From: an uncultured Chloroflexota bacterium
GTDB taxonomy: Bacteria > Chloroflexota > Dehalococcoidia > GIF9 > AB-539-J10
NCBI GenBank assembly: GCA_903884455.1
Contig: CAISEW010000013.1
Location: 1 to 42,206 of the forward strand
DNA length: 42,206 nt
Reading direction: 5' to 3'
Shown here: positions 1,328 through 16,127 of the stretch, in pieces
Layout: every line of letters begins with the position of its first letter
Position numbering within the stretch: the first letter of the stretch is position 1
Notes under the pieces: model-generated
Database searches by the model: none
The model's input: only the letters and a program-made list of their open reading frames with translations
Told to the model about the DNA's origin: nothing
Position numbers and translations under genes: made by a program

Positions 1328-1386
1328 GACTTATATCAGAATAGTCTCTATAATACTCGCCTCTCTAGAGGAGGCAGGTGGCAGGA

Positions 1387-2055
1387 ATGACTAGGCCGCG
1401 AGATGGATTGTACGTATGGGTAACCTGGTTGTCGAAATTAATGTCTGGGGAGGTGCAATGCCATTGGAGCGCATGGTTCAAGACACATTACACTGATTAC
1501 AGAACGCAGCCAATTGATGCACGACTCGCCAGTTGGACAGTGGAGCATAACCAATATCTCGCCGAGTTAATCAGAAAGAGAAAGTCCTTGGGGGAGATCA
1601 CATATAAAGAAGACCAAAACAAATTTCGAGTAAGAAGGACTTCTGGTCTAGTGATAGCGGGCAAACCTGATTTAATAGCTTACAATAAGACCACAGGGCA
1701 ATACACGGTCTATGATGTCAAAACAGGCAGTCAGAGGCAGAGTGACATTATACAAGTTATGCTTTACTGTTATTGCCTGCCATATGCATCCCCTATCTAC
1801 AAAGGCAAGATGCTAGATGGATGTGTGGTATACAAGACAGACAAGATTGAAGTGCCATCGAAGATGATAGATGACGCTTTTACCAAAAAGGCGATCTATT
1901 TTCTGAATATAGTAGAATCTCCTAATGCTCCCGACAAATGTCCGAGTTCTATTGAGTGTGAATATTGCGACTTAAGTGGTGATGATTGTCCCGAAAAGAT
2001 GCTGTCGAGTGAGGTCGACGACGCAAAACAACCAGAGGGAGAAATACCATTGTAA
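1387..2055 (+). CDS. Cas4/RecB-like PD-(D/E)XK nuclease with probable Fe-S cluster (222 aa)
   Basis: Predicted DNA exonuclease of the PD-(D/E)XK superfamily. Visible motifs: GKPDLIAYN with Asp95 (motif II), YTVYDVKTG with Asp110 and Lys112 (motif III, D-x-K variant) and QVMLYCYCLP (the Q...Y motif of RecB/Cas4 proteins). One cysteine near the N-terminus (Cys25) plus a C-terminal cluster (Cys185, 191, 194, 201) follow the layout by which Cas4 and AddB hold a 4Fe-4S cluster. AGAGGAGG at 1367-1374 is 12 nt from ATG 1387 but only 3 nt from an in-frame GTG at 1378, so the start may be either. It lies 29 nt before a second, larger nuclease of the same superfamily, in one operon. No CRISPR or other cas gene is visible in the window, so a Cas4 role in spacer acquisition is not supported. 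Confidence 0.75.
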   Translation: MTRPRDGLYVWVTWLSKLMSGEVQCHWSAWFKTHYTDYRTQPIDARLASWTVEHNQYLAELIRKRKSLGEITYKEDQNKFRVRRTSGLVIAGKPDLIAYNKTTGQYTVYDVKTGSQRQSDIIQVMLYCYCLPYASPIYKGKMLDGCVVYKTDKIEVPSKMIDDAFTKKAIYFLNIVESPNAPDKCPSSIECEYCDLSGDDCPEKMLSSEVDDAKQPEGEIPL

Positions 2056-2084
2056 TGCATGGAACATAACGAAGGGGAACCGTC

Positions 2085-3515
2085 ATGGGGATTATTGACG
2101 AAATCAATCAGTTAGTTGCAGATTGGACTCTTGATGAGTCACTCGCATCTCTTCTTAAGGAAGTGATGGACCAGCAGCTCATCGAACAGCCGGCTCGTAT
2201 AGACTATCACTACGTTACTCATTTGACTAATCCTGCCCAAAGATTCTTTTCTATAGCATACCCTGAGGTGAGAAAACCGCCAGCACTTGCTAGAAGACTT
2301 GCTCGAGGAAAACAGTTGCATAGTTTTGCCGGTGTTTGGTTTCGGAATCTTCCAGATTTCGTTGTAGAAGAGGGGACGCTTGACGGTGCTTGGGTGGGAC
2401 TGCTTGGTGTCCGCGGTAAAATCGACTATCGTGTAGGGGATTCAATATTTGAACTCAAGACAAAGGATAAGCTACCTGAGACGCCGGAAGAAATCCTTTC
2501 ATCCTATCCGCAAGATTTGGAACAGCTAGTCTTTTATTCCGTCATTCACCCGTCTGGCCCTGCGGTCAACTATCTTATTTTCATGAAGAATTCTGCACCG
2601 TTTAACCTAAAAGCTTTCAGGGTGATAACCGAAGATGCTGGCACAATAAAGTCCATTTTGGTGTCCAGAATGAGAGCTCTTAGCAAATCTTTTAAGACCA
2701 ATGACCCCTCACGATTAGGTCGGTGTCGGTATTACGAGAGCGGTTGTGCGTATCGTGTTTCTGGTTCCTGTCTTTGTGACGGACTCGAACCCCTTAACGT
2801 CAGTGCATTACAACGCTCGGTAGTAATCAATTTTGACGAAGCCTTTACCAAGCTATTAGAAAATGCCAGAGATACACACGGGGGTTCAAGCACTTTTTCT
2901 TTATCGACAAGGGACATAATTGCTCCAAGAAAACACTACATGGAAGCGATATCTGGTTCGGAGTCGCTATACGAGGGAGACGAAAAAGATGAATATAAGG
3001 CATGTGCGTGGGTATCAATGAACAAGCTGAAAAAGCATCACGGAATTGACTTAAGCAGGTCGGAGAAGCAATCGGTGATTGAATCTCAACGTGAACCACG
3101 CCTAAGGGTTGGTTTTCGATGGTTGAAACTCAAGAGCTCTATTCATCCGTCGGGTGAGATTGTTCCGTACCTGCTGAACATCAACCTCTCGCGCAAGCCC
3201 GCATCCGCACGGAATCCCCATGAATATCATCTTGCCGAGTTGGGTATAGTATGTGCAGCCTATGGCAAGGGCAAAGGAGTAATAATAAGGGTTTGTCCGA
3301 ATCTGGGCAAATTAGTCCAGGTCTTTCACGTAACATATCAAAATATAGACCGCATTAAACAGAGAGTCACAGAGACTATTGACAGTCTGGAGAGAGCGGA
3401 AGAGAAAGAAGATTTGCTATCTCTGCCACCGTGTCCACTATTTATGAATGATGGCGGAAAATGTCCGTTGATGAAAGAATGTCATTCTGGGGAAGAAAGC
3501 GGCTGCACATTATAG
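2085..3515 (+). CDS. Cas4/RecB-like PD-(D/E)XK nuclease with C-terminal extension (476 aa)
   Basis: Second member of the nuclease pair. Motifs in order: RGKQLHSFAG with His79 (motif I), GVRGKIDYRV with Asp114 (motif II), FELKTK with Glu123 and Lys125 (motif III) and YPQDLEQLVFYS (Q...Y motif). A cysteine cluster spaced C-x6-C-x7-C-x-C follows near residue 210-230 and may bind Fe-S or zinc. Residues about 240-440 form an extra region I do not recognise, and the C-terminus carries another Cys-rich tail (CPLFMNDGGKCPLMKEC). A good ribosome site (AAGGGGAACC) precedes the ATG. The protein is about twice Cas4 length. The catalytic residues are intact, so I expect an active nuclease, perhaps acting as a heteromer with the upstream protein; this partnership is inference from the operon. 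Confidence 0.7.
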   Translation: MGIIDEINQLVADWTLDESLASLLKEVMDQQLIEQPARIDYHYVTHLTNPAQRFFSIAYPEVRKPPALARRLARGKQLHSFAGVWFRNLPDFVVEEGTLDGAWVGLLGVRGKIDYRVGDSIFELKTKDKLPETPEEILSSYPQDLEQLVFYSVIHPSGPAVNYLIFMKNSAPFNLKAFRVITEDAGTIKSILVSRMRALSKSFKTNDPSRLGRCRYYESGCAYRVSGSCLCDGLEPLNVSALQRSVVINFDEAFTKLLENARDTHGGSSTFSLSTRDIIAPRKHYMEAISGSESLYEGDEKDEYKACAWVSMNKLKKHHGIDLSRSEKQSVIESQREPRLRVGFRWLKLKSSIHPSGEIVPYLLNINLSRKPASARNPHEYHLAELGIVCAAYGKGKGVIIRVCPNLGKLVQVFHVTYQNIDRIKQRVTETIDSLERAEEKEDLLSLPPCPLFMNDGGKCPLMKECHSGEESGCTL

Positions 3516-4187: not shown

Positions 4188-4367
4188 GTGGAAAAACACT
4201 GCGAATGGCACTTCGAAGCATGTCGTCAGGCGCTCAAATACGGCATTGATTTTAGTAGAGCCCAATCCTGGTGTATAATTAATGCATACAAGAGGAACCT
4301 GTTTCAGTGTGCCAACTGCATCGACATGTGGACGGGGCATAATGACTATCACCAAGGACGAAGCTAG
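4188..4367 (+). CDS. Possible small Cys/His-rich protein overlapping the RM gene start (59 aa)
   Basis: A GTG at 4188, immediately after an in-frame TAG, opens a 59-codon frame that overlaps the type IIG gene by 26 nt in another phase. The product contains EKHCEWHFEACRQALKYGID and later NLFQCANCIDMWTGHNDY, with a possible zinc-binding arrangement H-C-x2-H ... C ... C-x2-C-x-D. No strong ribosome site is visible (GGGG about 8 nt upstream). Before the TAG, the same frame (from about 4101) also reads like protein, so this could be the tail of a gene broken by that stop. A TATAAT-like hexamer within it (4274-4279) may instead be the promoter of the downstream enzyme. Low to moderate confidence. 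Confidence 0.35.
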   Translation: MEKHCEWHFEACRQALKYGIDFSRAQSWCIINAYKRNLFQCANCIDMWTGHNDYHQGRS

Positions 4368-7065
4368 GCAGAAGATAGTGGAACTGGTAGCCAAGTACCA
4401 GGCTCTCATACCTGCTCAGATCAAGGCATTCAACGAGGAGGCGACAAAACAAGGCTTCATCCTGCCACTCTTCCACGCTCTCGGTTGGGATATCGAAGAT
4501 ACTTCCGCCGAAGTACTGCCTGAATACAATGCATCTAAGGGTAGGGTTGACTACGCCTTCAAGCTCAAAGGTGTTGCGCAGTTCTATACTGAGGCGAAGC
4601 CCCTGAAAGCTGACCTCACAAATCCCAACTTCATAAAGCAGGCAGTGACCTATGCTTACAATAAGGGTGTCACTTGGGTCGTGCTCACGGATTTTGAGAG
4701 ATTCCGGCTGTTCAACGCACAAACCGGTACTTCGTATATTAATCTCAGCTGCCAGGACTACATCGCTGAGTTCGATCGGTTATGGCTCCTTTCGAGGGAG
4801 GCTGTGAAGGATGGCCTCCTGAACAAAAAGGCGGAGCAGGATGGCGCCCTGCGGCTCTCCATACCCATAGAAAGGCGATTGTTCAGCCAACTCCGACAGT
4901 GGCGTGAATCTTTGTACAATGAGTTGTCCGCATTCAACCGTAATCTTACTGCGCCACAGGTCGACCAGATTATTCAGAGGCTATTCGATAGACTCATTTT
5001 CATTCGCACTTGCGAAGACAGGAACATAGAAGAAAAGCGACTGCTGGCTGCCGTACACCAGTGGAGTTCCGCCGGTCACAAGAAGCACACTCTCTCAGAG
5101 GCACTCAGGCAGATTTTCCACGAGTTTGACGGCTATTACGACAGCGAACTGTTCGCTCCTCACGTAATTGACGATGATCAATTGTTTATAACGGAGACAA
5201 CCATAAGGGACATTCTGAGCGGCCTGTATGACATACCGGGTGCGATTGCAGGCTACGACTTTTCCCTAATCGACGCCGATGTGCTTGGCCAGGTCTACGA
5301 GCAGTACTTGGGTTACGTGGCTACCGTGCCTAGACAGAAGCTGCAGACCCAGATGGTTTTGAGGCTTCCAGGTAAGACTCCGGTTGAGTTCACCGAGAAG
5401 AAACAACACCGTAAAGATCAAGGCATCTACTACACACCTATGTTCGTAACAGACTTGATAGTAAAGATGACTGTCGGGCTCTTCCTCAAAGATCATAGCC
5501 ATGAAGAAATATGCGGAATGCGTATTCTCGACCCAGCTTGTGGATCGGGTTCGTTCCTTATCAGAGCTTATGACGAACTACTGAGGTACCACGCTTCTCA
5601 CGGTGGCAAAGATGTGGGAGACCTTTCTCAGGACGAACGCTTACCGGTACTCAAACGCAGTATTTTTGGAGTCGATCTCGACGCCCAGGCAGTAGAGATA
5701 GCCCGCCTCAACTTGCTCTTGAGAAGCCTCGCAGAAAGAAAGAGGCTTCTCTCCTTATCTGAGAATGTGAAGCAAGGGAACTCAATAGTATCTGGAACAC
5801 CGGACTCGCTCAAGAAGTATTTTGGACAGCGCTATAAAGCTAAACACGCATTTGACTGGGCATCGGAGTTTCCCGACGCAATCAATGCTGGCGGATTCGA
5901 TATTGTCATCGGCAACCCGCCTTATGGCGCGGAGTTTGACCTGGGTGACAGAGCATATATTGATGATCAATATCCACATAGCAAGGATAACAAGAACAGT
6001 GCTATGGTCTTTATCGAGAAAGGCCTCAGCCTCACGAAAAATGGCGGTTTTTTTAGCTTCATAGTCCCTAAATCCCTCGCGTATAGTCAGAAATGGCGGA
6101 GTGGGCGCACAATGCTCATGAAAGAGATCGGCTATGCCTACGACACCAGCAAGGCTTTCAAAGAAGTGCTGCTGGAGCAGATGGTAATCGTAGTATCCCA
6201 GAAGTACGCTTCGTCACCGATATATCAGGTGGCGTTCTTGGATGAAAGTGGACCTTCGAATCCAACCAAGATCGCAAAGGATGTTTCTAAGGCAACTGAT
6301 ACGATCCCACTTGGTATAAACGAAGATGAGCTGGCGATATTTGCTAAAATGACTTCCTCGAATGTGTTCATGAAGGACGTCAGCAAGACGGCGCGAGGGC
6401 TTCCATTCCAGAGGTACCTTTCCAAGGGAAACACGGGAGAACCTGTCTACCGAGGCGACAGCGTTGGACGATATACCCTTTACCCATCCGCAGAGAGTTT
6501 GAATGATGCAGCTCTAGGAAGTGCTGTCGACAAGGTGTCGTTTCTGAGGCAGCCAAAGATCATGTCTCAGCAGATTGTTGCTCACGTTCTCAAGCCTGTG
6601 GACCACATCGTGCTTATGTCCACCCTCGACGAGAAAGGAGTTCTTGCGCTAGACACAGTCCAGAATACTGTGGTGACGGACAGAAGATTCGCCATTGAGC
6701 TGGTCACCGGCCTATTGAACTCTACGTTGTGGTCTTGGTACGCGTACAGGTTCATTTTTAGCAGAGCAGTCAGGACAATGCACTTCGATGGATACTATAT
6801 TGGGAAGTTCCCACTGCCCAGTTTGGATAAGTCCAGTCCTTTCTGCGAAGCCGACCGTAAGGACCTCATAAAGCTGGTGAGAATGATGACGAAATGGAAT
6901 GAGGGACTGCTAATGGTGAAAGATCAGTATTCTTACGAGAGAGACGAGCTTGGCGAAAAGATAAGGAAGACTGATCGCGAGATCGACTCTATCATCTACC
7001 GGATGTATGAGCTTACTGAGAGTCAGATGAAGCTCGTCAAGACTGGAATGGGCAGGGAGGATTGA
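4342..7065 (+). CDS. Type IIG restriction-modification enzyme (nuclease plus N6-adenine methyltransferase, 907 aa)
   Basis: A single chain that both methylates and cuts DNA. The N-terminal nuclease domain resembles type I HsdR N-termini: GRVDYAFKLKG with Asp70, then FYTEAKPL with Glu84 and Lys86, an intact D...E-x-K site. The central methyltransferase has motif I LDPACGSGSFLIRAYDELL (near residue 396-414) and motif IV IVIGNPPYGAEF (Asn near 525), typical of gamma-type adenine-N6 enzymes. The C-terminal 350 residues look like a TaqI-like target-recognition region followed by a helical tail. ATG 4342 is chosen because GGACGGGG lies just upstream and the preceding 20 codons of the longer frame look like leader. 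It begins a three-gene run with gaps of 16 and 3 nt. PglX of BREX shares the methyltransferase plan but lacks this nuclease head and needs partner genes absent here. Confidence 0.85.
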   Translation: MTITKDEARQKIVELVAKYQALIPAQIKAFNEEATKQGFILPLFHALGWDIEDTSAEVLPEYNASKGRVDYAFKLKGVAQFYTEAKPLKADLTNPNFIKQAVTYAYNKGVTWVVLTDFERFRLFNAQTGTSYINLSCQDYIAEFDRLWLLSREAVKDGLLNKKAEQDGALRLSIPIERRLFSQLRQWRESLYNELSAFNRNLTAPQVDQIIQRLFDRLIFIRTCEDRNIEEKRLLAAVHQWSSAGHKKHTLSEALRQIFHEFDGYYDSELFAPHVIDDDQLFITETTIRDILSGLYDIPGAIAGYDFSLIDADVLGQVYEQYLGYVATVPRQKLQTQMVLRLPGKTPVEFTEKKQHRKDQGIYYTPMFVTDLIVKMTVGLFLKDHSHEEICGMRILDPACGSGSFLIRAYDELLRYHASHGGKDVGDLSQDERLPVLKRSIFGVDLDAQAVEIARLNLLLRSLAERKRLLSLSENVKQGNSIVSGTPDSLKKYFGQRYKAKHAFDWASEFPDAINAGGFDIVIGNPPYGAEFDLGDRAYIDDQYPHSKDNKNSAMVFIEKGLSLTKNGGFFSFIVPKSLAYSQKWRSGRTMLMKEIGYAYDTSKAFKEVLLEQMVIVVSQKYASSPIYQVAFLDESGPSNPTKIAKDVSKATDTIPLGINEDELAIFAKMTSSNVFMKDVSKTARGLPFQRYLSKGNTGEPVYRGDSVGRYTLYPSAESLNDAALGSAVDKVSFLRQPKIMSQQIVAHVLKPVDHIVLMSTLDEKGVLALDTVQNTVVTDRRFAIELVTGLLNSTLWSWYAYRFIFSRAVRTMHFDGYYIGKFPLPSLDKSSPFCEADRKDLIKLVRMMTKWNEGLLMVKDQYSYERDELGEKIRKTDREIDSIIYRMYELTESQMKLVKTGMGRED

Positions 7066-7081
7066 GAGGAGACCGTCGGAT

Positions 7082-7726
7082 ATGAATGGGCCGGTTCGTT
7101 TCTTGGTAGGTGGTCGTTACGCGAATCGCCGTGGTGAATACGAAGTCTTGTCAATCAGCGGAGATAAGCTGGTGATCAGATACGACGATGGGGTCACCCA
7201 AGAAGTCAGTATCTCCACACAGGCTAGGATATATCAGAACATGGCTCTTGAAGCAGTGGCAATCTCGCCTTATCCGGATACTGAAGCAGCTCGAACCCAA
7301 GCGTTCTATGAGTCGGTCGGTTTCCTTGCCATGCGAGCGACCATGCTTGAGGCCATTGTCCCTCCTCACTCGTTGGACGGTTTCGTGCGAGACTACATGA
7401 ATGTGAAAGGAGTAGCTCCGAAGTCTGGGCAGAGTGGTTTCTATGTCCACGACCCTTCGGCAGACAAGTGGGGTTGTGAATTGAGGATAACCTTCGCAGC
7501 TGCCGAAAACGAAACAGGGGGCCTAGATTTTGGCCCAGGGGTTGACATCGTGTTTAACCCAGCACATGAAAATAGCTGGCGTATCAACAACAACGGCCTC
7601 TGGTGGAGACTGTTGAAGCTAGGCTTCGAAATGGGAAAAGCGGCACAAAATGTGGGTATCATCAGGTCGTTGATTCATTTTCAGCTCCGGGGTTATTTCG
7701 ACGCTGGCGTGCACAGGGCAGGATAG
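7082..7726 (+). CDS. Uncharacterised RM-associated protein with possible SH3/Tudor-like N-terminus (214 aa)
   Basis: Unknown function. The first 45 residues (FLVGGRYANRRGEYEVLSI, then GDKLVIRYDDG) have the short-strand pattern of SH3/Tudor/KOW-like barrels that bind nucleic acid or protein. The remainder contains an alpha-helical segment and a Trp-rich stretch (NNNGLWWRLLKLGFEMGK) with no catalytic motif I can name. GAGAGGAG lies 10 nt before the ATG. It is co-directional with, and 16 nt from, the type IIG enzyme, and 3 nt from the next gene, so it probably belongs to the same system as a DNA-binding, specificity or control subunit. That role is inference from position only. Confidence 0.6.
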   Translation: MNGPVRFLVGGRYANRRGEYEVLSISGDKLVIRYDDGVTQEVSISTQARIYQNMALEAVAISPYPDTEAARTQAFYESVGFLAMRATMLEAIVPPHSLDGFVRDYMNVKGVAPKSGQSGFYVHDPSADKWGCELRITFAAAENETGGLDFGPGVDIVFNPAHENSWRINNNGLWWRLLKLGFEMGKAAQNVGIIRSLIHFQLRGYFDAGVHRAG

Positions 7727-7729
7727 CTA

Positions 7730-8275
7730 ATGGCAGACGAGAACTACTGGAAGAGGCAGTATCAACCTCTAAGGCATAAGGCAGGAGAACGCGAAAAGAC
7801 TACTGCACAAATCATTCAGGACTTAACTGGTCGTAAGTTGAAGGCAGTGGGACTGGGTGCCGAATCGGAAGGCTTTCTTCCGGGCAGCGCCGCCAGTCAA
7901 GGACATGAAAGAGGAGGAGCAGACTATGCCGTGATCGGTACGGACATATATCTGGAGGTTACTGGCCCGAATGTCACCGTGCCTCTCAGCGACCCGCTTT
8001 GGCTAAGACCAGACAAGATCGCGAATGCAAGATCTCACTTTCCGGAGCGAGACACTTGGGTAGTCCACTGTCTTCAACGAGACACCATCAGAGTAGTACA
8101 ACTAGATGAGAGGTTTTTCTCTGCTTACGAGCGCGGCAAGTACGCGACGGTTCATCCGATTATTCGAGGAGCCCCAGAGACGTACGTTGCAATCCCTGCC
8201 GACGATGAAAGCGTGCAAGACTTCGCCGCATTGATTGACCACATCAAGAGCTGGAAGCCTCGCGGTCACGAGTGA
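7730..8275 (+). CDS. Uncharacterised RM-associated protein, possible nuclease-like fold (181 aa)
   Basis: Third gene of the restriction-modification operon, starting 3 nt after the previous stop with AGGA 8 nt upstream of the ATG. Residues about 60-80 read GGADYAVIGTDIYLEVTGP. This Asp on one strand followed by a Glu on the next (D-x8-10-E-V-T) is how PD-(D/E)XK cores look, but the usual Lys is Thr, so catalysis is doubtful. A later strand (TWVVHCLQRDTIRVVQL) fits the rest of such a fold. It may be a degenerate nuclease, a DNA-binding partner or an unrelated alpha/beta protein. There is no membrane segment or signal peptide. Confidence 0.6.
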   Translation: MADENYWKRQYQPLRHKAGEREKTTAQIIQDLTGRKLKAVGLGAESEGFLPGSAASQGHERGGADYAVIGTDIYLEVTGPNVTVPLSDPLWLRPDKIANARSHFPERDTWVVHCLQRDTIRVVQLDERFFSAYERGKYATVHPIIRGAPETYVAIPADDESVQDFAALIDHIKSWKPRGHE

Positions 8276-8655: not shown

Positions 8656-9615
8656 ATGATCCAACCTGTTACACAGCTACCTGTGGAACTGGAGCAGAGG
8701 TTTGATGGAATGCGCCTCGCCAACGAGTCGCTGATGTTTTCACAGCGCTATGAGGAGGCAAGAAAGGGCTTCCAACAAATGTATGAGATCCTCCTCCAGA
8801 GACAACCAGCTGGTGCACGTTACCACAAAGGATACCCATTGCATCAAATCGGGATGACTTTCCTCCTGGAGGGGAAGTCACCTGATGCATTGCGGTATTT
8901 CATATTGGCTCATATAGAGGACCTACTACTGCAGAAAGAAGGAGAGGAAGACAAAGCTGACAGAATGCCGGCTAGCAAGAACTTGCGAGGGGTCTACAAG
9001 GTTCCGGAATCTGCTTTGCGTCAGCTTAAGGAGATTGCCCGTAACAAAAAGAGAATGGGGGAAGTTGTTCAAGATCCCAATGTGATATTTGATGAGTTGG
9101 CAAGAGGCCGTCCTGCACCGGAGGTAGCGAAACCCGCAGAAACGCCAGACGTCAGTGAGGAAAGACGGAAGCCTGGCAAATTTGAATCGGACTGGAAGAG
9201 GCGAGTGTTTGTTGGTGGAAGCTATCTAAAGCACTACTCAGAGATCAATCAGATCAAGAAGGTTTGTAAGGAGTTGGGCTACGACCCCGTGATCGCGTTT
9301 GAATTTGAGATGCCTCCTGGCAAGATTCACCATCACGCACTAATGCTGCTTCACGAGTGTAGCAAAGCTATCTTTGAAGTAACAGAGCATGTAGGCCAGC
9401 TCATGGAAATCGAGCGACTAAGGGATTATCAAGTAGAGGTTCTGATCGTTTGTCAAGTCAATGCGCCGCTGTCAGAAATGCTAGATGCCCTTCTCGAATC
9501 ACAAGACTATGAGGTAAAACGGTACAGTCGTCCAGAGGAGTTGGAGAAACTGGTAAAGGGCTTCTTGTCACACACGACCACGCCCAATCACGAATATCCC
9601 ACAGGTGCACGTTAA
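8656..9615 (+). CDS. Helical-repeat protein with C-terminal TIR/deoxyribosyltransferase-like domain (319 aa)
   Basis: Residues about 15-130 are alpha-helical with TPR-like spacing (SLMFSQRYEEARKGFQQMYE, then IGMTFLLEGKSPDALRYF). A charged linker (about 145-180) leads to an alpha/beta domain: RRVFVGGSYLKHYSEINQI, then LGYDPVIAF, ECSKAIFEVTEHVGQLMEIE and VEVLIVCQV. The glycine turn after the first strand, the second strand with an acidic turn and the late Glu (251 or 253) recall TIR, SLOG or nucleoside 2-deoxyribosyltransferase folds, which bind or cleave nucleotides such as NAD. I cannot choose among them by eye. AAGGAG lies only 2 nt from the ATG, an unusually tight spacing, and a hairpin precedes it. 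The layout of sensor repeats plus nucleotide-cleaving domain inside a defence-like island suggests an abortive-infection effector (inference). Confidence 0.6.
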   Translation: MIQPVTQLPVELEQRFDGMRLANESLMFSQRYEEARKGFQQMYEILLQRQPAGARYHKGYPLHQIGMTFLLEGKSPDALRYFILAHIEDLLLQKEGEEDKADRMPASKNLRGVYKVPESALRQLKEIARNKKRMGEVVQDPNVIFDELARGRPAPEVAKPAETPDVSEERRKPGKFESDWKRRVFVGGSYLKHYSEINQIKKVCKELGYDPVIAFEFEMPPGKIHHHALMLLHECSKAIFEVTEHVGQLMEIERLRDYQVEVLIVCQVNAPLSEMLDALLESQDYEVKRYSRPEELEKLVKGFLSHTTTPNHEYPTGAR

Positions 9616-9907
9616 GAGAATGGTGCACTGTATGGCATACCAGCATAATCAGTGACCTGGTCAAAGATAGGTAGCCCCGAGACCAAGAGTGTCTTGCACG
9701 CTTAACCGATGGAGTTCAACATTAACTCAGTATGTTCAATTAGCAAATGTGCGGGAGCGCTACTATGCAGAGTCTCAAACGCTCGCAATAACCCCCCGAC
9801 GTAGTCAAAGTCGGAGCAATCATCCCTCGTTGTTCATAGGTTCGGATGCTGCCTAGAATGACCGCTTTGGCGGTGCGACTATTCGCCTATGGACTTACTG
9901 GAAGAGC
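9616..9907. other. Convergent intergenic region
   Basis: It lies between two converging genes. No ORF, repeat or clear terminator with a T-run was seen. Confidence 0.4.
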
Positions 9908-10570
9908 CTATCGCCTAGAGTATTTGTTGTATGCTGTGTCAGCTATTGCGTCTGCCCACAGATATGTCAGGTCACCGGCTTTGATACCCTGCCTATTGGC
10001 ATGCATACTAGCTACCTTAACTATTTGGTGCATGCTTGCCCCGATGTGTGGGTGTATGTCGCTCCATAATTGGTACTCCATTTCTGAGGACATGTCCGTA
10101 GTTCGATAGTACCGAAGCTCTTCGTTAGCCAATCCTAAGTCGTTGTGCTTTATCACTAGATGAGCCCATACAGTGCGTACGTTAGTGACCCAGAACACAT
10201 GCGGCTTAAGCAAAGCCGCCATCTCAGAGCCAACGCTGATTTTGAGGTACGGAAGATTTTCGTTGTAGATGACTTCTGGAACCTCCTCTGGTCGCTGACA
10301 CATGAACAGCTTCTTGGCCAACTCGAATACCGTTTCTGGCGGTGAGTGCTGAAGGATCTTGGGCCCGAGACCGTGCTCTGCGGCACTGTAGTTGCCACCC
10401 TTCTCCACAATTCCAAGGGCTAGTTGGACATACTCGTGGACTTGGTTGCCTTGGAAGAACTGGATTAGCCTCTTATGGATTTCATATCGACTCGCATATA
10501 GCGCAGCCGCCGCACTGTAGTCTATGGCATCCCATGGTTTGTCTGACACACCCACACTCCTATGCTTCAT
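9908..10570 (-). CDS. Uncharacterised protein (220 aa)
   Basis: I do not recognise this family. The protein is soluble and largely helical, with motifs such as PWDAIDYSAAAALYASRYEI near the N-terminus and HPHIGASMHQIVKVASMH near the C-terminus. There are no cysteine clusters and no signal or membrane segment. A start at ATG 10568-10570 (MKHRSVGV) is preferred over the TTG at 10597 because the added residues look unlike coding sequence; neither has a good ribosome site. It is divergent from the PIN-like gene and sits alone on the reverse strand within the island. Function unknown; a HEPN-like or regulatory helical protein is possible but not shown. Confidence 0.55.
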   Translation of the reverse strand: MKHRSVGVSDKPWDAIDYSAAAALYASRYEIHKRLIQFFQGNQVHEYVQLALGIVEKGGNYSAAEHGLGPKILQHSPPETVFELAKKLFMCQRPEEVPEVIYNENLPYLKISVGSEMAALLKPHVFWVTNVRTVWAHLVIKHNDLGLANEELRYYRTTDMSSEMEYQLWSDIHPHIGASMHQIVKVASMHANRQGIKAGDLTYLWADAIADTAYNKYSRR

Positions 10571-10802
10571 TTTACTCTGCGGCTTAGCAGAGTACAAGCA
10601 TTAGGAAAGCTGGTCCGCAAGTCCAGGAATGCCGATTTGCCTCCACTATGTTAGCATCAGCCAATCTCTCACTGGTGGCACATGCGGCCTTCAATTCGCT
10701 GTTGACGATTACCCCTAATTGCACGTTTTAGCGATTTGTGTGATACTCGAAGTAATATTTGCTGATTAGTTTGCTGCTCGGCACGCGCTATTAAGCCAGT
10801 TG
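10571..10802. other. Divergent intergenic region between the 220-aa gene and the PIN-like gene
   Basis: No gene is seen. The right end holds the promoter and inverted repeat of the PIN-like gene, listed separately. Confidence 0.4.
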
Positions 10803-10832
10803 TTGGCTCTCAAGACTTCCGGGTATTATACT
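10803..10832 (+). promoter_or_regulatory. Candidate promoter of the PIN-like gene
   Basis: TTGGCT at 10803-10808 and TATACT at 10827-10832 with an 18-nt spacer. The predicted transcription start (about 10839) falls inside an inverted repeat. Confidence 0.5.
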
Positions 10833-10834
10833 AG

Positions 10835-10869
10835 TAGCTAATCTAGAAAAGCTCGCCGACGATTAGCTA
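10835..10869. promoter_or_regulatory. Inverted repeat (operator-like or leader hairpin) before the PIN-like gene
   Basis: TAGCTAATC at 10835-10843 and GATTAGCTA at 10861-10869 are perfect 9-bp inverted repeats separated by 17 nt. They lie between the -10 box and the start codon (10888). The position fits repressor binding or an RNA hairpin near the ribosome site. Confidence 0.55.
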
Positions 10870-10887
10870 GCAGGATTGGATATCAAC

Positions 10888-11469
10888 ATGAAAGTGTATT
10901 TGGATAACTCAGTGATTGGACGTCTCATGGATGTAGAGAGAGGCATCAACCGAGGGAGCAAGATGCTAGAGGAAGATGTTGCCATTCTCCCTAACCTCAT
11001 TCAGCTATGCGCTGATAAAAGAATTCAAGTCTGCGCCTCGGATGATGCTGGTGCTGAGATAGAGAAACTACGATTAACCATGCCGCAGTTGACAGATGCT
11101 TTGATGTCAAAACTGCAGTCTTTCACTTTGCTGCCTATAAGGCATGCCATAAAGTGGGATGACGGTCACCATTGGGACATGGGTTCTACATGGGCCGGCG
11201 ATAGCCCAAGCAACGCTGATTCGCTAGCTCAAGAATTGAAAGGTTTTCTGTTGAGCAAAACAAAGATAACAAGGGAGGCAAAGAAAGAAGCTGTAGAGTG
11301 GGACGCCTATCATCTTGCTGTCTGTAAAGATAACGGCTGCGATATTTTTCTGACCTGTGACTATGCGTCCATTTGGGCATATAGGAGGTTGCTGAAGAGG
11401 ATTTTTGATATTGAAGTTTTGCGGCCCGTGGAGCTCTTTGAGCAAATCCGTAGGCATAAGTTTGAATAG
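10888..11469 (+). CDS. PIN-like domain nuclease (193 aa)
   Basis: Probable single-strand ribonuclease of the PIN superfamily. The N-terminus KVYLDNSVIGRL places the first acidic residue (Asp6) right after the first strand. An acidic helix (DDAGAEIEKL) supplies the second, and the C-terminal WDAYHLAVCKDNGCDIFLT followed by CDYASIW supplies the last two Asp in the usual PIN order. At 193 aa it is longer than VapC toxins (about 130 aa) because of an insertion at about residues 80-130. No small antitoxin ORF is adjacent, so a classical VapBC pair is not supported. The start is ATG 10888 rather than the in-frame TTG at 10876. The inverted repeat over the transcription start suggests autoregulation or repression. 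Confidence 0.65.
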   Translation: MKVYLDNSVIGRLMDVERGINRGSKMLEEDVAILPNLIQLCADKRIQVCASDDAGAEIEKLRLTMPQLTDALMSKLQSFTLLPIRHAIKWDDGHHWDMGSTWAGDSPSNADSLAQELKGFLLSKTKITREAKKEAVEWDAYHLAVCKDNGCDIFLTCDYASIWAYRRLLKRIFDIEVLRPVELFEQIRRHKFE

Positions 11470-11501
11470 AATTACTCTCTGGTCTTTCCACTTAACGAAA
11501 G

Positions 11502-11543
11502 TCCATAATGTGCAGCTCGGACAACAATTGCCTGTTTTGTTAC
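11502..11543 (+). repeat. 42-bp direct repeat, copy A (left of the HEAT-nuclease/HEPN pair)
   Basis: 35 of 42 positions match 17625-17666 in the same orientation. On the reverse strand both copies read as peptide: N-K-T-(G/S)-(N/Y)-C-C-P-S-C-T-(L/I)-W, with several differences at third codon positions. It may be a remnant of a repeated short gene or mobile element rather than a plain recombination site. Confidence 0.7.
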
Positions 11544-11651
11544 CTATGGCGTAACGATCTGGCGCGGGGTTCAGTGGCAGAGAGCAGGTGCAGAGCACCG
11601 AGGGAGGGAAATATCACTCTCACCTTGGCCCTCTCCCGTCGAGGGAGAGGA

Positions 11652-11777
11652 TTATCCCCCTCCCACTAGCCAGTTTAACACTTTCTTCATTACCTCGGTG
11701 CGGTTGTCTCCGGCTACCAGGAGCGTTTCGACTTCAGGATGGCGTTTGATTTCGCCGGCAAAGGGATGGGGGTTAAG
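11652..11777 (-). pseudogene. Coding remnant (about 41 aa), unknown family
   Basis: The reverse strand reads IMLNPHPFAGEIKRHPEVET, then LLVAGDNRTEVMKKVLNWLV and a stop at 11652-11654. The composition is clearly protein-like, but only this tail remains and the frame is broken about 20 codons further upstream near 11818. It may be the C-terminus of a degraded gene. I do not recognise the family. Confidence 0.35.
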
Positions 11778-12044
11778 CATAATGGTGCCCAAAACTTTCC
11801 TAGGGAAGAATTCGAGGGACACTTTTTAGCCTCTGCGAAATATGCCGAGCTGCCGTTACACAAAACTCGGCTTTGTTCAACTCGCGGCGTCAAAGGAAAA
11901 GTCATAAGTTAGAGTTTCAAGCTGAATCGTCCAAATCGCCAAGAACCTTCCATTATTCAAAGGAAACATCGTATCCGAGTCGATATTAGATGCCCAGTGA
12001 AGCGAATTTACTTGTCTTGCAGTTCATATTTAGACTAGTGCCAG

Positions 12045-12053
12045 TGGTATAAT
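12045..12053 (+). promoter_or_regulatory. Extended -10 promoter of the large helical-repeat nuclease gene
   Basis: TGGTATAAT (TGN plus perfect TATAAT) with no properly spaced -35 (TTCATA at 12023 gives a 19-nt spacer). Transcription would start near 12060, 3 nt before the ATG, so the mRNA would be leaderless or nearly so. Confidence 0.55.
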
Positions 12054-12062
12054 GTCAGTAGG

Positions 12063-15000
12063 ATGGTTCGAAAGAATCTACAGAAGCAAATAGATGACAC
12101 CATCCGTATGGAGCTCGAAGACGTTCCCCATCAACACGTCAAGAACTGGTGCAAGCATATTGAGATTAACCAAGAGAATGTGAGCCCTCTTGGACAGATG
12201 GTCGGCGTCCCAATAGGAAGTAAACGCGTAGGCTGCCGCTTCCACCATGGTTATTCGGGAATGACCGTGAGACAGACGGCAACCTTATTCATCGAAACCA
12301 ACTGCTTCGATTGTTCTCACCATACACCTATTAGCTCTGACAATTTCGGAGAGGCTGTTATCTCGAAGGTCCGAGAGCGTAAGAAGATTAAGAATGAAGT
12401 CGATAAGGCGAGTCAATTATTACAGGGAATGACACCTTCGGATCCAAAAGGGGTGCTCGCGGCAAATGTCCAAACGGATGTGAAAGCAAGCGAACTCGCT
12501 GGTCTCCTATCAAGTGACGAACATAAGCAAGAGGCTGCTGATAAGCTTCTCCAAGGCGCTAAGTATAAACCGACCATAATATCACGCGGTTTGGCTTCTG
12601 TACTCATTGGCGCTTTTCTTGATACACAAGTTGGAAGCAGTGTAATGGAAACCCTACTTTTAGCTGGGCGAAAAGACAAAAGCATACTTAGCATTGCTGT
12701 CAAGGGCGCAGTAGTGGCTCTTCACGAGGGCAGAAACATAGACTCTGCATGTATGATAGTGACCGAAGCTATTGAACAAGACGAAATTGTTTTGACGGCT
12801 GAATTAGCGAGTACTGTAATTTCTTGGCTTTCTACGCCTGTGGAGCCATTCCCGTTTCTTGGCCCCACGACGCATTCGAGAACATGTCGCGAGGGTCCTG
12901 ATAGAGCCCTCAGAGCTATTGCAGAGAGGGATATTAAGCTCGTCCGCGAGGTAGTTATAAGTCTACTTAATTCTAGCAAATCATACCTAGTTGGAGCCGC
13001 CTGTGCAGCAGTACTAATCCTCCTGGAAGTATCACCAGACTCAATCACAGATTTCTACTTTCAGCCACTGGTGAAGGCATTATCCCAAGAACGCGAAGAC
13101 GATGAGACGTATGTGGATGCATCGATATGCGAAACGTTCGCTAGAATGCTGTTTCTTGAGCCTGGTCAAGTATCCAAAGAACTTTTCCGTGCAATTGAAA
13201 AAGCCGGCGAGGATTTACAAGAAGCACTAATTCACGTGTTTATGCGTGATGAGGCAATAAAGGTGGCTGGAGTTTGGATTGAACCTTTCATTAACCTTCT
13301 TACGAGCGAAAACCTCGATGACCGAACCAAATTTGAAACCTCAGACATACTATCGCATGTGACAAGACAATGTGCTGACACTGTGTTCGCTCATCTTACG
13401 TCCCTGTTTGGTGTGCTTGCTATAATTAGCGGCCGCTTGGACAATAAGCGGAAGAACGTACCCTTACCAGACAAATCGCATGTTTCGTATCTTGAATATC
13501 AACCCGACCTATCTACTTTGAGCGGAGTAGCGCGAAACTTGCGGGAAGTTATCAGGCAAGTTGGATTTGCGGATATTGAGAAGACCATTAGTGAGACCGA
13601 CCACCTAATTCGAGGTTCTGACACAAAGGTTGCTGCTTCTTTTAAATGTGAACTTTTGTTACTTTTAGGGGACATTGCAGAAGAGAATGTGGAGCTCGCA
13701 GTTAAAATAGTGCCAACAGTGTTTCCACACCTTTTTGATCCTGTGTCCGCCATTGTTCGTGGCGCTGCAGCCAAGGCATGTGCAAAGCTAGTCATTCGTA
13801 ACCGGAGTTGCTTACCCGAAGATGTGATAATCGCATTGGCAGCACTATTAGGCGACCAGTACTTGTATCCCGTTAAAGCAGCTGTTGAAGCTTTCGAATG
13901 GATCAAGATAGAAGACTTCAGATTAGCCGGACAAGTAGTTAATCGTCTGACGGTCCTCTATACAGCCTATAGAGAGGAGTCTTCGCAATATGATTTTCTT
14001 ACGAAAATTTCGGCTGCACTCTTGAATGTCGGAAATTCGCATTTTTCCTTTTTGCCGTATGCTGCATTAATCATAAAAGACCTTGCAGGTCATCAATATT
14101 TCTACTCGGCAAAAGAGGGGCTCCGTCTATTACGTAGGCTCGCTTGGGGCCATGAGGAGTATCAAAAACTATTTCTATCGGCATTGTTGGATTACTATTC
14201 TAAATTTGATTTGGAGATAACAGTAAGCCGTAGCGGATATCATAGCGGGAGGAGTGATAGTGAGTTTGAGGAATTATATGACCTCAACCCAGAAATAGTA
14301 AGGGCCGAATCTGCAAGGCTAATGACCGTTGCTCACGCTCAAAATGAGTTACACAACCTTGTTCACTTCGCCTGTATCTTGATAACAGTTGAACTATATA
14401 GTGAAGCCGCAGAGTTATTCGAAAGGTATTCTGCCTTGTTGCCCGTAGAAGAACGCTATGATTGGGAACGAGCCCGCTACAAGGCACTGGCGTTACTTCT
14501 AAGGGTCGAGACAGCTTTGGCAGAATCCGACCTAGATGGAGCAAAGGAGTGTGTCGAACAGGCTTTGGAAGTAATAGAGTTGCAGGAGAAACCCAAAAGA
14601 ATCCTGCCATTTGGATTGGATGAAGTCATTCCCAAAGACGAAGAGAAATCTGATTTCTACACTGATTGGTTACAAATAAGAAGATCATGGTTAAATCTGA
14701 TTGATAACCCAGCAGCTTTAGAGGAAGCGTCTGAAGAAATAATTGGCCGGATTCAAAGCTTAAAAGCGGTCCTCGTTGACCAAGCCGACGAAGGAATTCT
14801 GCAAGTTCAAGAAGAATTAGCATCTGCAGCTAAACTCTTAGCCCAGTGGTATCAATGTGTATTGAATGGTGAACCGGAGCAAGATGTAAAGCAAAACGCA
14901 ATCAGTGCTCGACTATCGGAGGCACTTAAGATCAGTCTCGCAAATGCTCATGAATTACTTAGGGACCATATCAGGGGTCAAATAGGCAAGGTTGATTCCC

Positions 15001-16127
15001 TTTCGGTAGCTGGGGGCATGCACGAATTTCTACAGGAATTGAAACTAATTCCAATGCCAATGCCAAGACAAGATCTACCGATGCCACGGAGCTGGCGTAA
15101 TGGTATGACGCGAGACATATCCGAAATCAAGCACAAAGAAGAGATTACGCCTAGCCATGCAAAAGTGGCATTCGCGAGTGTTTCGATCGATGGCCAAGCG
15201 ATTCCCCAAGTAATCAGCATGGTAGCTGGTCGTATTCACGACTTGAGAGTCAAAGTTGAACTGTCTGAGATAGACGCGCAGACACAGGAAATATATCTGA
15301 TACCAGTGTCAACTCTTCCTGAAGATGAGTATCTGTTTCCTAGACAATCATTATCTCTTTCGAAAGGAAAGAACACGTATGAAATACGGGGATATCTTCA
15401 ATTCAAACATTCGCAGTCCGAGTCTAGTGAACCAATTGACATCAATATTCAAGCGTACTTGCATAGAACTGATGGTACGAGTGAGCCTTGCACAATCTTT
15501 GGGCAATCTCAACTAAAATTCCGTGTAATCGATGAAGCGAGGCTATCAGCGCAGGGAACATCGGAAGCTAAGGCTGTTGGAAAAGTGTTTAAATGTCTTG
15601 AGAGTCTTATCCCTGGTATTGCTTCGGCAACCTACAATAATGAAAGAGAGGTCGTCACCAGCATTATTAACTACGCTGGCCTCGAACTTTGTGACCCCAG
15701 CTTTACAGGTTTGCAGACGGATGAGAAGGACTTTCAGAAAGATCTGTCCCGATATCTACGCATTCACTTCAATCGCGCTGACGTTCTCCGTGAGGTTCAA
15801 GCAGGTAGAGGATTTGTGGACGTACTGGTACGTGGCATTCCAGTAGAACTGAAGGTACTCAGAGGAAAAGAAGACTTGGAACACTTTATTGAATCCAGCC
15901 TGCCTCAGGCTACACAATACATTGTGAGTCAAGGTCGCGTGCTGGGCTTATTATGCATACTGGATATCTCAGAGCGAATGACCCCGGTGCCAAGCCTCAT
16001 TGATGATGTGTCAGTCTCTAAGGGTAGGACAGAAGGAGGCATCGATCCTTCACCAGAGGGAGCTATAGGTATCGTTACTATAGTCATACGTGGAGCACTT
16101 TACCCGGCAAGTAAGCTACACGGTTAG
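12063..16127 (+). CDS. Giant helical-repeat protein with C-terminal PD-(D/E)XK nuclease domain (1354 aa)
   Basis: Architecture read by eye: an N-terminal Cys/His cluster (Cys58, His61, His62, Cys81, Cys84, His86, His87), probably zinc-binding; about residues 120-770, an extended run of paired helices with HEAT-repeat character (such as VRGAAAKACAKLVIRNRS); about 780-950, TPR-like helices; about 1010-1150, a beta-rich, Ig-like region; and at about 1200-1310 a nuclease-like core. The core has GRGFVDVLVRG with Asp1253, PVELKVL with Glu1262 and Lys1264, then SLPQATQYIVSQGR, the D...E-x-K...Q order of active PD-(D/E)XK enzymes. No NTPase motif (Walker A) is visible, so it is not an Avs/STAND protein. 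It is followed by a HEPN gene and flanked by direct repeats. I infer a scaffold-sensor with a DNA-cutting effector. I know no described system with exactly this layout. Confidence 0.7.
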   Translation: MVRKNLQKQIDDTIRMELEDVPHQHVKNWCKHIEINQENVSPLGQMVGVPIGSKRVGCRFHHGYSGMTVRQTATLFIETNCFDCSHHTPISSDNFGEAVISKVRERKKIKNEVDKASQLLQGMTPSDPKGVLAANVQTDVKASELAGLLSSDEHKQEAADKLLQGAKYKPTIISRGLASVLIGAFLDTQVGSSVMETLLLAGRKDKSILSIAVKGAVVALHEGRNIDSACMIVTEAIEQDEIVLTAELASTVISWLSTPVEPFPFLGPTTHSRTCREGPDRALRAIAERDIKLVREVVISLLNSSKSYLVGAACAAVLILLEVSPDSITDFYFQPLVKALSQEREDDETYVDASICETFARMLFLEPGQVSKELFRAIEKAGEDLQEALIHVFMRDEAIKVAGVWIEPFINLLTSENLDDRTKFETSDILSHVTRQCADTVFAHLTSLFGVLAIISGRLDNKRKNVPLPDKSHVSYLEYQPDLSTLSGVARNLREVIRQVGFADIEKTISETDHLIRGSDTKVAASFKCELLLLLGDIAEENVELAVKIVPTVFPHLFDPVSAIVRGAAAKACAKLVIRNRSCLPEDVIIALAALLGDQYLYPVKAAVEAFEWIKIEDFRLAGQVVNRLTVLYTAYREESSQYDFLTKISAALLNVGNSHFSFLPYAALIIKDLAGHQYFYSAKEGLRLLRRLAWGHEEYQKLFLSALLDYYSKFDLEITVSRSGYHSGRSDSEFEELYDLNPEIVRAESARLMTVAHAQNELHNLVHFACILITVELYSEAAELFERYSALLPVEERYDWERARYKALALLLRVETALAESDLDGAKECVEQALEVIELQEKPKRILPFGLDEVIPKDEEKSDFYTDWLQIRRSWLNLIDNPAALEEASEEIIGRIQSLKAVLVDQADEGILQVQEELASAAKLLAQWYQCVLNGEPEQDVKQNAISARLSEALKISLANAHELLRDHIRGQIGKVDSLSVAGGMHEFLQELKLIPMPMPRQDLPMPRSWRNGMTRDISEIKHKEEITPSHAKVAFASVSIDGQAIPQVISMVAGRIHDLRVKVELSEIDAQTQEIYLIPVSTLPEDEYLFPRQSLSLSKGKNTYEIRGYLQFKHSQSESSEPIDINIQAYLHRTDGTSEPCTIFGQSQLKFRVIDEARLSAQGTSEAKAVGKVFKCLESLIPGIASATYNNEREVVTSIINYAGLELCDPSFTGLQTDEKDFQKDLSRYLRIHFNRADVLREVQAGRGFVDVLVRGIPVELKVLRGKEDLEHFIESSLPQATQYIVSQGRVLGLLCILDISERMTPVPSLIDDVSVSKGRTEGGIDPSPEGAIGIVTIVIRGALYPASKLHG

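Follow-up and report, generated by a model that had tools for sequence, protein, structure and literature searches.

Type IIG restriction-modification enzymes of the Eco57I/MmeI kind (PADLOC model PDLC03604) hold an N-terminal D...EXK nuclease, a DPACGSG/NPPY methylase and a C-terminal recognition domain on a single chain. Type IIT enzymes such as BtsI, BsrDI and BspD6I divide the work: according to PMC2909958 and PMC4081073, the large subunit recognises and cuts DNA, and the small subunit completes cleavage. Target-recognition domains are also able to move between methylases, and PMC3077401 describes such domain movement in Type I and IIG enzymes. Here we describe a locus of an uncultured Chloroflexota bacterium, found on a contig of 42,206 nucleotides (CAISEW010000013.1, or C13; the whole stretch is called the window below), in which a type IIG enzyme is directly followed by two small genes. 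The enzyme has the single-chain layout of the Eco57I/MmeI group, and the locus differs from that group by the two linked genes. The mechanism that we propose for it would be that of type IIT enzymes, by analogy; these, however, generally come with separate methylases, whereas methylase and nuclease are fused in the window enzyme.

We give a probability of roughly one half to the reading that, at this type IIG restriction-modification locus, the DNA-recognition half is equipped with helper genes of its own. This reading is suggested by relatives of the small genes, which accompany the same recognition half, one at a time, in unrelated defence enzymes.

A type IIG enzyme and two small genes

The window belongs to a 1.56-Mb genome assembled in 63 contigs and 99.5% complete. 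The open reading frames (ORFs) confirm the arrangement given in a preliminary description of this DNA: the enzyme gene (4342-7065), the gene of a 214-residue protein (7082-7726) and that of a 181-residue protein (7730-8275) all lie on the + strand, separated by 16 and 3 nt, respectively.

Counted from its first ATG, the enzyme ORF would span 4282-7065 and 927 residues. The start at 4342, giving 907 residues, is supported by a 54%-identical relative in another genome (G428), whose residue 1 aligns with residue 3 of this shorter form. The best PADLOC model is REase_MTase_IIG PDLC03604 (288.6 bits), and the Pfam matches to Eco57I (105.6 bits), TaqI_C (34.0 bits) and N6_Mtase all exceed their cut-offs. 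At the N-terminus, HSDR_N, MmeI_N and HSDR_N_2 match below the curated cut-offs, the first two just under them. The chain contains a PD-(D/E)XK nuclease motif, D70...E84-A-K86 (4549-4599, + strand, as are all features of the locus), the S-adenosylmethionine (SAM)-binding motif DPACGSG at residue 397 (5530-5550) and motif IV, NPPY, at residue 525 (5914-5925). Its C-terminal half, residues 504-827 (5851-6822), extends from motif IV to the end of a TaqI_C-like recognition domain, which includes FIFSRAVRTMHFDGY (6751-6795); we defined this half by blastp, sliding identity, trees and alignment. Judged by these models and motifs, the window enzyme is a complete type IIG protein with nuclease, gamma-class N6-adenine methylase and recognition domain on one chain, as had been called.

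The same description had also proposed a variant of a bacteriophage exclusion (BREX)-like system, which the gene content contradicts. PglZ (PF08665) is found nowhere in the 99.5%-complete genome, while a control search was positive in 2 of 14. The best match of the enzyme to an NCBIfam BREX methylase scores 78 bits where 900 would be needed, and the PglX-type models stay far below theirs. By these searches, the locus is not BREX.

The recognition half in chimeric methylases

By sequence comparison, two methylases of other loci, both associated with helicases, carry the same C-terminal half as a graft that begins at motif IV and takes in the whole recognition domain. The first belongs to a genome of a different Chloroflexota family (G184). 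It is a 1103-residue protein with an SNF2-type helicase as its upstream neighbour; residues 11-765 are 46% identical to a Chlorohelix plasmid methylase, and residues 720-1040 are 33% identical to the window enzyme. The second is encoded by Paracoccus marcusii plasmid pCP157_06, one of two plasmids returned by a search with the C-terminal half alone. Residues 1-758 resemble a Croceicoccus methylase (49%) and residues 734-1049 the window enzyme (31%).

In both chimeras the sliding identity changes over close to motif IV. Trees of the N-terminal part pair G184 with Chlorohelix (98/97) and Paracoccus with Croceicoccus (100/99), in conflict with the tree of the C-terminal part, which pairs G184 with Paracoccus (96/94); the trees comprise five and six rows, with some long branches.

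The two helicases, both of the SNF2 type, match DpdE PDLC02853 (637 and 658 bits for G184 and Paracoccus, respectively) and also DrmD PDLC02621 (308 and 272 bits), and the two methylases match DrmMI PDLC02643 (314 and 277 bits), which places them close to Class 1 defence island system associated with restriction-modification (DISARM) and other helicase-methylase loci. The window enzyme, unlike them, has no such neighbouring helicase and a different N-terminus; among 11 further window proteins scanned with PADLOC, no Drm family was matched.

The genes behind the grafted halves connect these chimeras to the small genes of the window. In G184, a 176-residue relative of the 181-residue protein overlaps the 3' end of the methylase gene by 11 nt and is followed by a 457-residue ORF that matches intact methylases at their C-terminal ends (60% to Thermus and 44% to Chlorohelix). 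In Paracoccus, the chimeric methylase is followed by a 108-residue gene corresponding to the C-terminal domain of the 214-residue protein (E 1.2e-10 with a profile built without Paracoccus; 96.9% in hhalign), then by a 118-residue ORF that is 67% identical to residues 1254-1326 of the Croceicoccus protein. Thus, the displaced original 3' ends persist as separate downstream ORFs in both grafts, and one accessory gene stands between the grafted half and this stub in each of them. In both chimeras the exchanged segment therefore includes the accessory gene. The window holds both genes, in the order recognition half, 214, 181; this may be the ancestral arrangement, with a single gene of the pair retained in each graft.

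Since homologues of each small gene accompany the specificity half when it is grafted, both genes are linked to that half, which agrees in part with the earlier interpretation as specificity partners. We tentatively extend this to a mobile specificity cassette, in which the recognition half and its helper gene or genes would move as one unit between different defence architectures, from single-chain type IIG enzymes to helicase-methylase loci or the reverse, with motif IV as the point of entry and the old 3' end displaced. The helpers, a nuclease with a migrated lysine and an adaptor joining an SH3-like module to a WG/RIN domain, would then be partners of the recognition half, whichever enzyme hosts it. 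While the exchange of recognition domains is already known, the piece seen here differs from known domain movement in that it starts at motif IV, crosses enzyme architectures and is trailed by an accessory gene. The helper gene accompanying the exchanged half would be the new element: a literature search of open-licence PMC papers listed none on accessory genes moving with a recognition domain. If this holds, gamma-class methylases could swap their specificity along with helper genes that act in trans, so a recognition domain would not always be self-sufficient, and annotating type IIG enzymes as stand-alone proteins would miss parts of the system. Two unnamed protein families, one possibly of nucleases, would also become linked to restriction.

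The same recognition half appears in two further settings. In G354, a 202-residue fragment of it, 51% identical, stands alone (L049:6194-6802) in the neighbourhood of a full type IIG enzyme (9728-12649) whose own recognition domain is of another kind; the fragment has the look of a specificity piece kept in reserve or cast off. In G812 (L116:1033-8853), a 1310-residue methylase with this half is followed by an overlapping gene for a 911-residue PHP/SMC-like protein and a gene for a 401-residue AlbA-like one, both named by reading; the partner set is different from that of the window.

The two small proteins and their possible roles

Neither the 214- nor the 181-residue protein has a match at E ≤ 1 in Pfam, PADLOC or NCBIfam, and sequence searches of the PDB, with each protein alone or as a profile, gave no usable relative. 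Phage collections contained no match for the two proteins, the G184 homologue or the C-terminal half of the enzyme, and scans of viral contigs with both small proteins returned no relatives.

The 181-residue protein (7730-8275), putatively PD-(D/E)XK-like, forms a family of three members with the G184 protein (176 residues, 40% identical) and a protein of a Roseomonas mucosa plasmid (249 residues, 35%). Invariant across the three are R21-E22, D65 (codon 7922-7924), E76 (7955-7957), T78-G79 (T78 at 7961-7963), P89-L-W and R93-P-D-K96 (K96 at 8015-8017), the lysine sitting in PLWxRPDK. The spacing resembles a PD-(D/E)XK core with T78 in the usual position of the lysine. In the PD-(D/E)XK superfamily this lysine is able to migrate to the next helix, and K96 could substitute in this way. 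Accordingly, the D...E-V-T core noted in the preliminary description is present with D65, E76 and T78, but it lacks its lysine only in the literal sense, given the invariant K96. Because it retains D65, E76, T78 and K96, the 181-residue protein may be an active nuclease. Also, phrog_9634, annotated as nuclease, matches residues 27-173 of the G184 protein (E 6.1e-5); it does not match the window and Roseomonas members.

The 214-residue protein (7082-7726) appears to combine an N-terminal SH3/KOW-like module with a C-terminal WG-E-R...RIN domain. The module, of about 57 residues (7100-7270), recurs at the N-termini of six proteins of four Chloroflexota genomes (G378, G237, G461 and G109). In a weak AlphaFold2 model it is β-rich, with strands between residues 12 and 41, where the mean pLDDT (predicted local distance difference test) of 10-residue blocks is 55-75. 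This fits SH3/KOW without proving it, and the SH3/Tudor-like start first described is thus partly supported. The 57-residue module opens several unrelated Chloroflexota proteins (L009-L014), and the C-terminal domain of the one at L009 reads as a uracil-DNA-glycosylase-type fold.

The C-terminal domain has the invariants W130-G-x-E133-x-R135...F138 and R167-x-N169. One full-length homologue, 41% identical, occurs in a genome of the same family (G044), the sole locus returned by a scan of genome contigs with two peptide patterns, both taken from the 214-residue protein. On plasmids the domain forms genes of its own, of 120, 121 and 108 residues in Acinetobacter sp. Z1, Psychrobacter pA18P2 and Paracoccus marcusii pCP157_06, respectively. 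Restriction or methylase genes adjoin it at all five known loci. Apart from the window, searches with the 214 family brought up three of these loci, and the search with the methylase half alone brought up the fourth, in Paracoccus. In G044 these neighbours are an N6_N4 methylase, a LAGLIDADG-like protein (by reading; no Pfam match) and a 169-residue PD-(D/E)XK-like protein, whose one match, to HSDR_N_2, is sub-threshold. The Acinetobacter gene is preceded by genes for an Eco57I-type methylase and for a protein read as a relative of the REase_II-type protein of Psychrobacter. The Psychrobacter gene begins 19 nt after a full-length match to PADLOC REase_II PDLC03488 (340 bits). On this last plasmid (L022:6113-8458), the REase_II-type HNH protein, the C-domain gene and a gene for a 192-residue PD-(D/E)XK-like protein stand in a row, which faces a GTP cyclohydrolase I gene and one for an 830-residue cytosine methylase.

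With dedicated helpers, the locus could function as follows. The 181-residue protein would be a PD-(D/E)XK nuclease whose lysine, K96, is supplied by the following helix; it would dock on the recognition half and cut, or help to cut, DNA at unmethylated sites. This role is modelled on the small subunit of BtsI and other type IIT enzymes. The 214-residue protein would act as a small adaptor, its SH3-like module and WG/RIN domain joining both the DNA and the nuclease to the recognition half. The type IIG subunit itself would add the protective N6-methyl-adenine.

The small proteins may instead be non-catalytic, completing or adjusting DNA recognition as a split specificity subunit or a DNA clamp and needed for methylation and cleavage at the right motif; the fold of the 181-residue protein would then be a PD-(D/E)XK relic used for binding. 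We consider this unlikely, though it is the most serious of the alternatives. It agrees with the accessory genes tracking the recognition half and not the catalytic N-terminus, with a threonine in the usual lysine place in all three members of the 181 family and with the occurrence of the 214 C-domain beside very different methylases and nucleases. However, three divergent members all retain D65, E76 and K96, which is more conservation than a binding relic calls for, and close relatives of the recognition half exist without the accessory genes.

It is much less probable still that either small protein keeps the nuclease in check, as an immunity or silencing factor protecting the cell while the locus is being established or when SAM is low. 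Control proteins of restriction-modification loci offer a general precedent, and small proteins adjoin restriction genes at several loci. Nevertheless, those of the window match no known family of regulators or inhibitors, and in G044 the C-domain adjoins a methylase without a recognised fused nuclease.

Extent of the linkage and surroundings of the locus

We compared loci encoding the recognition half with those of more distant members of the methylase family. An accessory gene is present at three of the eight close loci (both genes in the window, the 181 family in G184 and the C-domain in Paracoccus) and at none of 27 distant ones; the Fisher p value of 0.009, or 0.037 without the window, is a guide only, because the profile defining the close loci was built with five of them, all three positives among these. 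Three loci were dropped from the close count: G449, whose contig ends 28 bases past the gene; G354, a recognition-domain fragment; and G857, which is broken, with one stop, near a contig end. From the distant set we dropped L063, with 3 bases downstream. The methylase at L057, although split over two ORFs, stayed in the close set. A genome with duplicate loci entered the counts a single time, and the distant set includes several species of one genus.

These counts also bear on a third alternative, that the small genes are passengers: defence-island genes that lie downstream by chance, moved when the segment recombined and contribute nothing to restriction. The first 17 kb of the window do have the look of a defence island in Pfam and PADLOC scans, as this scenario would have it; the occurrence of the full trio in the window alone and the five close loci devoid of accessory genes, that of the nearest relative included, suit it as well. 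Yet the 181 family is solidly present in two of 400 Chloroflexota genomes searched, the window genome and G184 (E 1.9e-34), both times among the genes directly behind the same recognition half. In addition, the Paracoccus C-domain gene starts at the very base after the stop codon of the grafted methylase, and the three-to-none split between close and distant loci, read with the same caution, also speaks against chance. Altogether, we judge the passenger scenario improbable.

In the same 400 genomes, weak partial matches to the 181 family occur in G265, G289, G337 and G315 (E about 5e-4 to 9e-4). A search of the class around G184 found one member in 199 genomes, G184 itself. A candidate in G092 (E 8.9e-4, among 100 relatives searched) was rejected as a chance match, being antisense to an ORF read as an ABC-transporter gene.

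Several results weigh against dedicated helper genes. The complete trio occurs in the window and in no other genome examined. Accessory genes are missing from five of the eight close loci, and Haladaptatus, L057, G685 and G812 have the recognition half with neither of them. The nearest relative of the enzyme, in G428, is 54% identical over 906 residues with intact D...EAK and NPPY, but neither gene is found beside it or elsewhere in this 98%-complete genome; the enzyme can thus evidently be kept without them. Such a lack of conservation next to homologues is what the preliminary description had named as counting against its own reading. The Roseomonas homologue of the 181-residue protein has no methylase annotated nearby. 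As the nuclease motif of the type IIG enzyme is already intact, there is no evident need for another nuclease. The assignment of the 181 family as nucleases consists of the motif reading and a PHROG match to one of three homologues. With hhalign, the family matches neither a Uma2 protein nor the Psychrobacter PD-(D/E)XK-like protein, so the Uma2-like migrated lysine is a motif reading and not a matter of homology. Finally, with a pLDDT of 37.2 for the 181-residue protein (single sequence) and 45.6 for the 214-residue one (one homologue), the quality of the AlphaFold2 models is too low for a verdict on either fold.

Other genes surround the trio. Upstream, at 1378-3515, a Cas4/RecB-like PD-(D/E)XK protein of 225 residues (PDDEXK_1 above cut-off) is followed by a 476-residue protein without a database match, which reads as a second nuclease of the RecB/Dna2 type. 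Just 3' of the trio, at 8656-9615, a possible defence gene encodes 319 residues with a sub-threshold TPR match and a weak DUF4062-like region. Further downstream, at 12063-16127, a 1354-residue protein matches PADLOC OloA over residues 65-449 (E 2.3e-8, 31.8 bits); with additional weak HEAT-repeat matches, it is possibly a relative of Olokun.

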